Assembly: GCF_002310495.1 (NCBI RefSeq)
Contig: NZ_CP023344.1
Location: forward strand, 310,001-374,000
Direction: 5' to 3'
DNA length: 64,000 nucleotides
From: Nibricoccus aquaticus
GTDB lineage: Bacteria > Verrucomicrobiota > Verrucomicrobiia > Opitutales > Opitutaceae
In this document: one piece after another, positions 32,596 through 61,869 of the stretch
Position numbering within the stretch: position 1 is the first letter of the stretch
Layout: every line of letters starts with the position of its first letter
Program-made: the position numbers and the translations under genes
The notes under the pieces: generated by a model
Told to the model about the DNA's origin: nothing
What the model saw: the letters and a program-made list of their open reading frames with translations, nothing else
Database searches by the model: none

Positions 32596-32660
32596 GCGTT
32601 CAATGTTGAGTGTTGAGAGTTAAGCGTTCCCCGGCTCGCGCCCCGCCTTTGCGTCTTCGC
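32593..32660. repeat. Short word repeats between the oxidase gene and leuB
   Basis: A GTTGAGTGTTGAGAGTT run (about 32604-32621) is followed by TTTGCGTCTTCGC at 32648-32660. The second word recurs within the 47.4-48.2 kb repeat region. No gene is present in this 162-bp gap. Confidence 0.5.
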
Positions 32661-33864: not shown

Positions 33865-33885
33865 TTAACCGCAGAGGCGCGGAGG
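33865..33885 (-). repeat. GCG-word element framing the GxxExxY gene, left copy
   Basis: TTAACCGCAGAGGCGCGGAG plus one G abuts the ATG of the GxxExxY gene. Read on the minus strand it is two CTCNGCG words and a GTTAA tail. It matches the right-hand copy in inverted orientation at 18 of 21 positions. Confidence 0.8.
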
Positions 33886-34305
33886 ATGGAATTAGAGTCA
33901 AAAGCTCTGACCGATAAAATCATCGCAGCCGCGATCGAGGTGCACCGCCACCTCGGTCCCGGCCTGCTGGAGTCTGCCTACGAGGTCTGCCTCGCCGACG
34001 AACTGGAGCGTTCCGGCTTCACTCTGCAACGCCAGATGCCGCTTCCAATCTCCTACAAAGGCCGCCAGCTCGACGCCGCCTATCGCCTCGATTTAGTCGT
34101 CAACAACTCAGTGCTCCTCGAACTCAAATCAGTCTCCCACCTGGAGCCTATCCACGAAGCTCAAGTCCTGACCTACCTCCGTCTCAGTCGACTCCCAATA
34201 GCTCTCCTCATCAATTTCAACGTCCCGTTACTCCGCCACGGCCTCAAACGTTTCGCCCTGACTCAGTCCCTTCCGAACTCCGCGCCCTCCACGCCTCCGC
34301 GGTGA
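33886..34305 (+). CDS. GxxExxY protein, PD-(D/E)XK nuclease-like
   Basis: 139 residues. The family motif is G26-LLE29-SAY32 within VHRHLGPGLLESAYE. A nuclease-like core follows: Asp69 in YRLDLVV, then Glu79 and Lys81 in LLELKSV, spaced like the PD-(D/E)XK site. The family is widespread but its function is unknown. The gene is enclosed by inverted copies of one repeat. The left copy ends at the start codon and supplies a GGAGG too close to serve as a normal ribosome site. The right copy encodes the last residues NSAPSTPPR and the stop. This suggests it moves or spreads together with the repeat. Confidence 0.88.
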   Translation: MELESKALTDKIIAAAIEVHRHLGPGLLESAYEVCLADELERSGFTLQRQMPLPISYKGRQLDAAYRLDLVVNNSVLLELKSVSHLEPIHEAQVLTYLRLSRLPIALLINFNVPLLRHGLKRFALTQSLPNSAPSTPPR

Positions 34306-34306
34306 A
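34276..34306 (+). repeat. GCG-word element framing the GxxExxY gene, right copy
   Basis: It begins AACTCCGCGCCCTCCACGCC and continues TCCGCGGTGAA. It is the inverted counterpart of 33865-33885 and closely matches 48109-48136. It overlaps the end of the coding region, including the stop codon. Confidence 0.8.
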
Positions 34307-47386: not shown

Positions 47387-47405
47387 CCCGCGAAGACGCA
47401 AAGAC
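47387..47405 (-). repeat. TCTTCGCG word element, inverted copy
   Basis: CCCGCGAAGACGCAAAGAC. Its 17 bases CGCGAAGACGCAAAGAC are the exact reverse complement of 47494-47510. Confidence 0.75.
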
Positions 47406-47446
47406 CTGAACCTTCCCATTCGGACTCTTTGCTTCCTCCCTTTGCA

Positions 47447-47520
47447 GCTTAGCGCCTTCGCGATTCAATTCCTCACTTCGCATCCGACCTTAGCGTCTTT
47501 GCGTCTTCGCGCTTAACTCA
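47447..47520 (+). repeat. TCTTCGCG word elements with TTAA-like tails
   Basis: Two elements lie in tandem: one ends CTTAGCGCCTTCGCGATTCA, the next reads TTAGCGTCTTTGCGTCTTCG followed by CGCTTAACTCA. The second contains GTCTTTGCGTCTTCGCG at 47494-47510, exactly inverted at 47389-47405. This 207-bp gap before the DUF5069 gene holds no other feature. Confidence 0.75.
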
Positions 47521-47556
47521 CCGACGCATACCTTCCGCCCGTATCGTTCACTCACC

Positions 47557-48009
47557 ATGATTTCCTACGCCACACCCGATCTCACCCAACACCCGCCCCG
47601 CAGCCCGCGCGTTCAACTCGGCGGCTACATCGTCCTCCCCCGCATCATCGACAAAGCCCGCGCCCACGCCGCCGGCAAAACCGGCGAATTCAAATACAAC
47701 AACCCCCTCGATAAACGCCTCTTCACCTTCGCCGGCATCGACGCCGACGCCTTCCTCGCCGCCGCCAAATCCGGCCTGAGCGACACCGAAATGCTCGCGT
47801 GGTTTAACCAAAACTCCGCCAACAAGCGCACCGACTTCGAAATCGCCACCTGGTCCAACTGGCTGCTCAACCTCCCTCCGGGCGATGCCGTCCGCCATCA
47901 GATGGCCGCGGATCTCATCAAAGAAAAAGCACCCGGCCGCGAAGACATCCGCACCCTCTTCGACCGCCTCGACCTCGACGACTACCTCACCTTCGGCGGC
48001 CGCCCCTGA
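47557..48009 (+). CDS. DUF5069 family protein
   Basis: 150 residues. The start LTQHPPRSPRVQLGGYIVLP followed by RIIDKARAHAAGKTGEF and NPLDKRLFTFAGID is the DUF5069 signature. The family is common in Verrucomicrobiota and Planctomycetota. It has no known activity and no signal peptide or catalytic motif I can point to. The gene stands alone between two repeat-rich gaps. Confidence 0.88.
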   Translation: MISYATPDLTQHPPRSPRVQLGGYIVLPRIIDKARAHAAGKTGEFKYNNPLDKRLFTFAGIDADAFLAAAKSGLSDTEMLAWFNQNSANKRTDFEIATWSNWLLNLPPGDAVRHQMAADLIKEKAPGREDIRTLFDRLDLDDYLTFGGRP

Positions 48010-48016
48010 GTGAGAG

Positions 48017-48050
48017 TTTTTGAACCACAGAGAAACAGAGTTCACAGAGA
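48017..48050 (-). repeat. TCTGTG word element, reversed
   Basis: Read leftward it has three TCTGTG-type words followed by GTTCAAAAA, the same layout as the rightward elements at 48331 and 48439. Confidence 0.7.
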
Positions 48051-48108
48051 AAAGACCGGGCCCTTTTCCGCGCTCTCTCCTCTTATCTGATTGTTCTCCG
48101 CCTCCGTT

Positions 48109-48136
48109 CTCCGCGCCCTCCGCGCCTCCGCGGTAA
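48109..48136 (+). repeat. CTCCGCG word element
   Basis: It starts TCTCCGCGCCCTCCGCGCCT and ends CCGCGGTAA. It has three CTCCGCG words and is nearly identical to the repeat at the 3' end of the GxxExxY gene 14 kb away. Confidence 0.8.
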
Positions 48137-48218
48137 ACTAAAATCCGACTCCGTCCTTCGCCCCGCCCTTGGCGCCATCGCGTCTTCGCGATTCACCCCA
48201 ACCCGCTTCCCCCAGTTC

Positions 48219-48249
48219 GATGGAGGCGCGACGCGCCCGTCGCGCCTAA
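48219..48249. repeat. REP-like hairpin element, copy B
   Basis: GGCGCGAC (48225-48232) pairs with GTCGCGCC (48239-48246) around GCGCCC. Flanks CGATGG and TAA are shared with the copy at 23852. Confidence 0.65.
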
Positions 48250-48330
48250 CCGCATCGCGATTCACGCCCAAAGCACACCGGAGACATCGCGCCTTCAACA
48301 AACAACCTCTCCCTCCGATATCCGGTCCCC

Positions 48331-48356
48331 ATCTGTGCTATCTGTGGTTAAAAAAA
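48331..48356 (+). repeat. TCTGTG word element
   Basis: ATCTGTGCTATCTGTGGTTA followed by a run of A. The word ATCTGTG occurs twice before GTTAAAAA. Confidence 0.8.
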
Positions 48357-48433
48357 TTCCGACCTCCTCCACCCCGCTCCAGCCTTGGCCTCTTCGCATC
48401 TTCGCAATTCCCCCAACCACCGCTCTCCATCCA

Positions 48434-48469
48434 TCCGGATCTGTGCCATCTGTGGTTAAAAAATCCGGA
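48434..48469 (+). repeat. TCTGTG word element with inverted flanks
   Basis: ATCTGTGCCATCTGTGGTTA plus A-run at 48439-48463. It is framed by TCCGGAT (48434-48440) and ATCCGGA (48463-48469), an exact 7-bp inverted pair. Confidence 0.8.
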
Positions 48470-61842: not shown

Positions 61843-61869
61843 CATCCGCGTCCATTCGCGGTTAAAAAA
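61843..61869 (+). repeat. CGCG-word element
   Basis: CATCCGCGTCCATTCGCGGT followed by TAAAAAA. It has the layout of the TCTGTG elements at 48331 and 48439 with CGCG in place of TGTG. Confidence 0.7.

Follow-up and report, generated by a model that had tools for sequence, protein, structure and literature searches.

The 64,000-nucleotide stretch of the Nibricoccus aquaticus chromosome analysed here, referred to throughout as the window, carries in its gene gaps a series of short elements that raise the question of what they are and how they arose. An earlier note had described them as one family, in which a short word is given two or three times and followed by GTTAA or a close variant, and had proposed a mobile REP-like family, a nucleoid-protein site or the product of a dedicated enzyme. 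The doubled-word elements are real, as all eight named examples are present in the sequence. The three that had been read as leftward copies (33865, 47387 and 48017) are, however, the left arms of inverted pairs. The suggestion of a mobile REP-like family came close, but the elements terminate a unit that carries a gene, a complete example of which lies in the window, and their direction follows replication. In our judgement they are likely to be the arms, occurring in pairs or singly, that end mobile units of very small size. The features of the window that bear on this reading are listed below; junctions, arm classes and the names of neighbouring genes were assigned by eye.

33865 to 33885, minus strand: 5' arm of the GxxExxY unit, TTAACC with the words CGCAGAG and CGCGGAG; its end adjoins the ATG
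33886 to 34305, plus strand: GxxExxY gene, PD-(D/E)XK nuclease family (TIGR04256, 147 bits; PF13366)
34278 to 34306, plus strand: 3' arm of the GxxExxY unit, CTCCGCG, CTCCACG, CTCCGCG and GTGAA; overlaps the stop codon of the gene
47387 to 47405, minus strand: left arm, class K, CGCGAAG and CGCAAAG; inverted partner at 47489
47448 to 47467, plus strand: class K arm of two words with the tail ATTCA
47489 to 47516, plus strand: right arm, class K, with three words and the tail CTTAA; pairs in inverted orientation with 47387
48023 to 48049, minus strand: left arm with CACAGAG words (placed at 48017 in the earlier note)
48109 to 48137, plus strand: right arm, class C, with three CTCCGCG words and the tail GTAAA
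48331 to 48351, plus strand: solo arm, class A, ATCTGTG twice and GTTAA
48439 to 48459, plus strand: solo arm, class A
61844 to 61865, plus strand: solo arm, class B, ATCCGCG, ATTCGCG and GTTAA

The complete unit spans 33865-34306 and sits after leuB. The arms at 48109 and 48023 face each other, but their words differ and the pairing was made by eye. A further word class, GCGTTGA-like and with a GTTAAGCG tail, was observed at 32596-32640, in the gap 5' of leuB.

The window's genome (designated G000; other G numbers denote relatives and L numbers single loci) was sampled over 1.66 Mb of its 4.73 Mb, comprising 80 stretches of 20 kb and the window, at a GC content of 62%. In this sample a regular expression for words followed by GTTAA found 53 elements against none across three shuffles and, without the tail condition, at least two words were matched 599 times against an average of 388 in the shuffles, bearing out the expectation that counts would exceed those in shuffled DNA. 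Similarly, in the same genome 45 of 821 GTTAA sites (5.5%) are preceded by a recurring 8-mer (at least seven of eight bases matching, 7-11 bases upstream), compared with 0.94% or less for ten of twelve control 5-mers, 1.1% for CTTAA and 1.9% for ATTAA. The shuffles and the control 5-mers together rule out a chance origin of the elements. When twelve tails were admitted the set grew to 116 elements, of which 106 are intergenic, as had been claimed, seven lie in predicted genes and three at the ends of stretches, in sequence that is 87% genic according to our own gene finder.

The single grammar proposed for these elements holds as a layout, but it is realized in several classes of word that differ in spacing. 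Written so that the tail comes last, the words are CTTNGCG in class K (34 elements, tail mainly ATTCA or CTTCA), ATCYGTG in class A (29 elements, tail GTTAAAAA), CTCYGYG in class C (20 elements), ATTNGCG in class B (17 elements) and ATCAGTG in class D (9 elements), with seven elements outside these classes; reversed, so as to read inward, the class words take the form CRCNRAK. An arm consists of two to four heptamer copies and is not a free-standing site, and two inverted arms bracket a unit of about 450 bp. We also observed CTCCG within the 20 bases adjoining the third word, upstream, in 23 of 52 class A, B and D arms of this genome (background 7.6% per 20 bases of intergenic DNA), to be read either as one more word, the fourth, or as the remnant of a Shine-Dalgarno sequence on the opposite strand.

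The association between arms and gene extends well beyond this chromosome. Using 340 short genes, all from G000, as a control set (99th percentile of the inverted-flank score, 12.0), 28 of 30 GxxExxY loci, fetched from 80 matches in the window's genome and its relatives, exceeded the control 99th percentile, as did 22 of 30 loci (from 103 matches) encoding the four-helix-bundle protein TIGR02436 of 23S-IVS type. Against mismatched pairs of the relatives set, the 95th percentile was passed by 21 of 30 GxxExxY and 22 of 30 IVS-type loci and the 99th by none of either 30, because words recur between loci. In the phylum sample 21 of 28 loci lay above the control-gene level, three mis-scored loci at contig ends being counted as misses. 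Of 80 named loci, whose titles include Verrucomicrobia, Cyanobacteria, Chloroflexi, Planctomycetes, Acidobacteria, Bacteroidetes, Methanothrix, Methanosarcinales and others, three were dropped at contig ends; an arm pair was detected in 56 of the 77 scored, compared with 15% of mismatched pairs, and at the stricter score of more than 15 in 47 of 77, compared with 5%, leaving 21 of the 77 in which the score found no arm pair. Among the three archaeal loci, L212 and L248 have arms and L205 does not. The arms therefore go with the gene family and not specifically with G000, in many phyla and in some Archaea. Solo copies could conceivably serve as nucleoid-protein sites, but this would not account for the occurrence of such words around a single nuclease family across many phyla. 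The genes of TIGR02436, which we take to be the S23/IVS protein family, are frequently bracketed in the same way, but with other words, and some of their arms have GTAG inside the word. Two-armed units have a median length of 448 bp (range 410-543, n=68).

Comparison of the arms within each unit shows which features are conserved. At least two CRCNRAK words were present in the 5' arm of 81, the 3' arm of 91 and both arms of 68 of 138 GxxExxY loci, against 19 (5' arm) and 25 (3' arm) when the same expression was applied to the opposite strand; 70 of the 138 lack two such words in one arm or both. The spacing pattern is the same in both arms at 49 of the 68 two-armed loci (11.5% of mismatched pairs). 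Across these 68 loci spacing lengths agree between arms in 93% of cases (mismatched pairs, 37%) and variable word positions in 70-99% (42-80%), whereas the spacer bases agree in merely 52% (34%). Since words and spacings agree and spacer bases do so poorly, it is the repetition, the word and the spacing that are conserved, and not full complementarity, which fits the earlier proposal that selection acts on word repetition over any single consensus.

It could be argued that the units are RNA-level parasites similar to the intervening sequence (IVS) of 23S rRNA, their arms pairing in mRNA so that RNase III excises the unit and the insertion is tolerated. Such a mechanism would fit the neighbouring genes, both of which are on the strand of the unit's gene at 54 of the 107 loci where the adjacent reading frames are long (both are opposite at 13 of 107), and the IVS-type proteins encoded by sister units; in Coxiella the IVS, an ORF with a stem at its borders, is cut by RNase III, according to passages of PMC4990558. 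It should be emphasized, however, that arm mismatches show no excess of sense-strand G:U (129, versus 152 for the mirror image, 104 loci), on which ground a stem in the sense RNA was rejected as the principal constraint, that words and spacings match while spacer bases agree poorly, and that no stem is possible for solo arms. We therefore regard RNA parasitism as improbable.

The arm code was also compared with the phylogeny of the enzyme. On a nuclease tree of 104 rows, 76 of them with a spacing label, spacing requires 34 changes against a mean of 47.4 in 200 shuffles (lowest 42), the last word base 3 against 10.6 (lowest 9) and the second word base 23 against 28.7 (lowest 24). The tree is poorly resolved, with 56 of 101 forks open, and two of the six spacing groups, 1-2 and 3-4, are singly unclustered on it. 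Thus, the arm code partly follows the nuclease tree.

Gain and loss, for which the comparison of orthologous gaps had been suggested, are visible at two sites. In one genus, 11 of whose 14 genomes were read at the gap between gatA and gatB, the unit is present in G065 and G096, G101 has arms around a shorter insert, and eight genomes have no unit, among them G074, whose flanks are 94-96% identical to those of G065. The gap of G074 (L289) holds another short word hairpin, of GAGTGATGAC type. In a second genus, read in 9 of 14 genomes, G055 has a unit and eight genomes do not; at this site G091 carries a solo A-like arm in place of a unit and G088 (L259), also devoid of a GxxExxY unit, a short word hairpin of ATGAACT type. 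The presence of other word hairpins at unit-free sites therefore indicates that gaps holding units or hairpins seem to turn over quickly. A copy of the G055 unit resides elsewhere in G058, 88% identical over 500 columns; the flanks of the two copies are unrelated, homology extends no further than the outer limits of the arms, and the G058 gap orthologous to the G055 site contains no unit. The arms of these two copies are long, with no clear word triples. The units thus have the inverted ends of a mobile element with terminal inverted repeats, and occur as present and absent states at orthologous sites and as copies at new ones. Target-site duplication was unreadable, as the empty gatA/gatB and G055 sites are too diverged, and none could be read in the comparison of G055 with G058 either.

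The same operon junctions are hit in different genera, sometimes with other word types, as if these were preferred sites. Units were observed at the gatA/gatB junction in G001, G002, G005, G009, G012, G065 and G096, at pheS/pheT in G003 and G010, and after leuB in G000, G002 and G065, the gene names being read by eye from the flanks except for the leuB of the window. After leuB the units of G000 and G065 have different word types, and in several congeners this site may hold inserts of other content. Elements matching one pattern number 293 in the 20 relatives with a GxxExxY gene and 2 in the 8 without (p=2.5e-4), a co-occurrence to be read with the caveat that genomes lacking the gene are mainly smaller and of other families. 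The same pattern reversed occurs 15 times in the relatives, 12 of them in G025.

Most copies in G000 are solo arms, and the survivor is almost always the arm that faces the origin. Cumulative GC skew places the origin of this genome at ~2.1 Mb and the terminus at ~4.45 Mb, with some local exceptions. The pattern TYNGYGNNNTYNGYGGTTAA follows replication at all 59 of its matches genome-wide, 38 on the plus strand at 37-2084 kb, 20 on the minus strand at 2309-4431 kb and one on the plus strand at 4705 kb, and every match is the origin-proximal arm; in the sample, GTTAA elements are oriented 52 to 1. The orientation of the elements, listed earlier as rightward or leftward, is thus non-random. Nine regular expressions of our choosing extended this to other word families of the sample, two finding no match and one matching a single intragenic place. 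Agreement with the polarity was found at 14 of 14 distinct places for GTAGCG words, the kind seen in IVS-type units (four in predicted genes), at 11 of 11 for AATGACC, 7 of 7 for ACAGGAT and 5 of 5 for AACG words; intergenic CRCNRAK arms obey the rule 52 to 7, and AGTTGA words 13 to 3 overall, the intergenic share being just 2 to 1. The AATGACC matches are tandem arrays, all of those in the sampled part lying on the leading strand (for example G000:C1 at ~716.9, 1335.5 and 1556.4 kb), which presumably resemble cyanobacterial heptamer repeats. Elements on the other strand account for 9 of 116, and 6 of these 9 belong, by eye, to inverted pairs or the GxxExxY unit. In G025, 35 of 46 elements agree with the local skew (p=5e-4), in 20 stretches picked around hits and where the skew is weak; the skew of G004 is too noisy for an origin to be placed.

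Gene direction was rejected as the cause of arm orientation, as genes by our own calls are 688 leading and 658 lagging. The elements prefer gaps between tandem genes on the lagging strand (41 versus 15; background 265 versus 241). The GC skew of G000 is extreme, at ~0.3 in many 20-kb blocks, with hardly any excess of genes on the leading strand. It is conceivable, and in our view unlikely, that the second arm simply decayed under such extreme strand-biased mutation, so that polarity reflects which arm fits the skew. The magnitude of the skew is in keeping with this proposal, as is the fact that the clearly biased families place CRCNRAK, GTAG, AATGACC or ACAGGAT on the leading strand, and both arms do persist in some class C (5 of 17) and class K (5 of 28) elements, scored as a second arm within 160 bases. 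Within the same distance, however, an eroded second arm is undetectable for most copies of the other classes (partner present in A, 1 of 29; B, 0 of 16; D, 0 of 8), whose mean second-arm scores equal those of controls, and the weakly skewed G025 is biased likewise. Alternatively, the solo arms could be functional, strand-polar chromosome sites that derive from old units and now serve a protein of the nucleoid, of segregation or of replication. The near-perfect replication polarity, the intergenic placement and the good conservation of the two words adjoining GTTAA are consistent with such a role; against it, a single polarity is common to different words, and a function of the whole chromosome would hardly be expected to go with the low copy number in many relatives (0-6 for one pattern in 20 of 28). 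We give this explanation little weight.

The reading of the elements as arms of mobile units directs attention to the enzyme they enclose. The window protein matches TIGR04256 at 147.1 bits (cut-off 35) and Pfam PF13366 (PDDEXK_3) at 143.3 bits (cut-off 22) in profile searches, and its D..ExK catalytic motif (D62, E72 and K74) is invariant in 28 aligned sequences. The fold model has a pLDDT of 97, and its best matches, weak and none below E 0.001, are lambda exonuclease and SSO0001, which we take to be a Cas4. G000 carries just two GxxExxY genes for its many solo arms, a point against this reading. Matches to the window protein (E 1e-5) occur in 8 of 72,556 plasmid and 0 of 50,697 phage records, and plasmids and phages were thus rejected as the usual vehicle. 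A literature search, mainly of openly accessible papers, found no paper tying GxxExxY to flanking repeats, although the NCBIfam entry may carry a remark on them; in the passages of PMC8934634 that mention it, GxxExxY appears only as a neighbour-gene label. Searches with the exact end sequences returned nothing on bacterial repeats, as judged by title.

These data show that arms flank the gene at most loci tested, tend to share word and spacing, track the gene at orthologous gaps and delimit a unit that occupies different positions in two related genomes. The full unit is ~450 bp long and comprises an outer end, mostly T-[TG]-[AC]-A-C, two to four heptamers with a unit-specific spacing, a small gene and the inverted array; the gene encodes the GxxExxY nuclease or, in sister units, a four-helix-bundle protein of 23S-IVS type. 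In many GxxExxY units the heptamers are of CRCNRAK form. We infer, in agreement with the arms, their code and the nuclease clades, that each PD-(D/E)XK nuclease would recognise its own arms by word and spacing and cut at both ends, and would in this way move the unit and, in trans, gene-less copies. The elements may then be, as had been suggested, the product of a dedicated enzyme, the GxxExxY nuclease being the putative candidate. Solo arms would be born when a replication fork, having copied the first arm, passes over the remainder and so cuts the unit short, or else by insertion of a single arm at the fork. IVS-type units share the layout without the nuclease, and thus the mover could be a host enzyme.

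Several known systems resemble parts of this architecture. REPINs, described in passages of PMC3116915 as paired, inverted, intergenic repeats whose singlets are taken as pair remnants, which are thought to co-evolve with an adjacent enzyme gene (RAYT), and for which fork single-stranded DNA is proposed by analogy to IS608, are the nearest working analogue of the units. The likeness lies in short paired intergenic repeats, singlets as remnants and the link to an enzyme gene; the enzyme here, however, is a PD-(D/E)XK nuclease and not a tyrosine (Y1) transposase, the gene lies between the arms, the ends are spaced heptamer arrays, and the polarity of solo arms in G000 is near-absolute. REP palindromes are reported to carry a GTAG or CGTC tag (PMC3733652); the five class consensuses of G000 are tandem spaced words with no such tag. 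The nearest relative of the four-helix-bundle units is the Coxiella 23S IVS with its S23 protein, a small ORF with complementary borders and a patchy distribution in passages of PMC4990558, both features recurring here. The units described here differ in adjoining protein genes, the window unit being located after leuB and the other flanks that can be named by eye being protein genes, and in their word arrays, and the GxxExxY units bear no sign of selection for an RNA stem. In Geobacter metallireducens, Aklujkar et al. 2009 (PMC2700814) described paired tandem-repeat 'global regulator binding sites', interpreted as putative binding sites of IHF/HU and as unique to that genome; class 2 of these consists of three TCTCCGTS[Y] repeats in opposite-strand pairs with varying separation, one of them possibly a vestige that has no partner. 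This grammar equals class C of G000, but the passages of PMC2700814 on these sites link no gene between the repeats.

MITEs are gene-less copies that have the ends of a gene-bearing unit, a relationship that the gene-less copies described here share. In contrast with MITEs, there is here no known transposase, and no target duplication was seen, the empty sites being too diverged.

We tentatively raise the possibility that these units constitute a categorically new and widespread class of minimal mobile DNA, in which an end code in lineage-specific dialects is read by a nuclease, fork-coupled birth and death leave origin-proximal halves, and two unrelated protein families, GxxExxY and the S23-type four-helix bundle, run one architecture. 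If true, this would also account for the Geobacter heptamer 'regulatory' repeats. The reading of the elements as arms of mobile units would in itself supply boundaries and a candidate enzyme for short repeats of many bacterial and some archaeal genomes, while giving a likely role to two 'hypothetical' protein families. As arm code and nuclease co-vary naturally, specificity would be directly testable, and the replication-polar half-elements could record replication-fork events.
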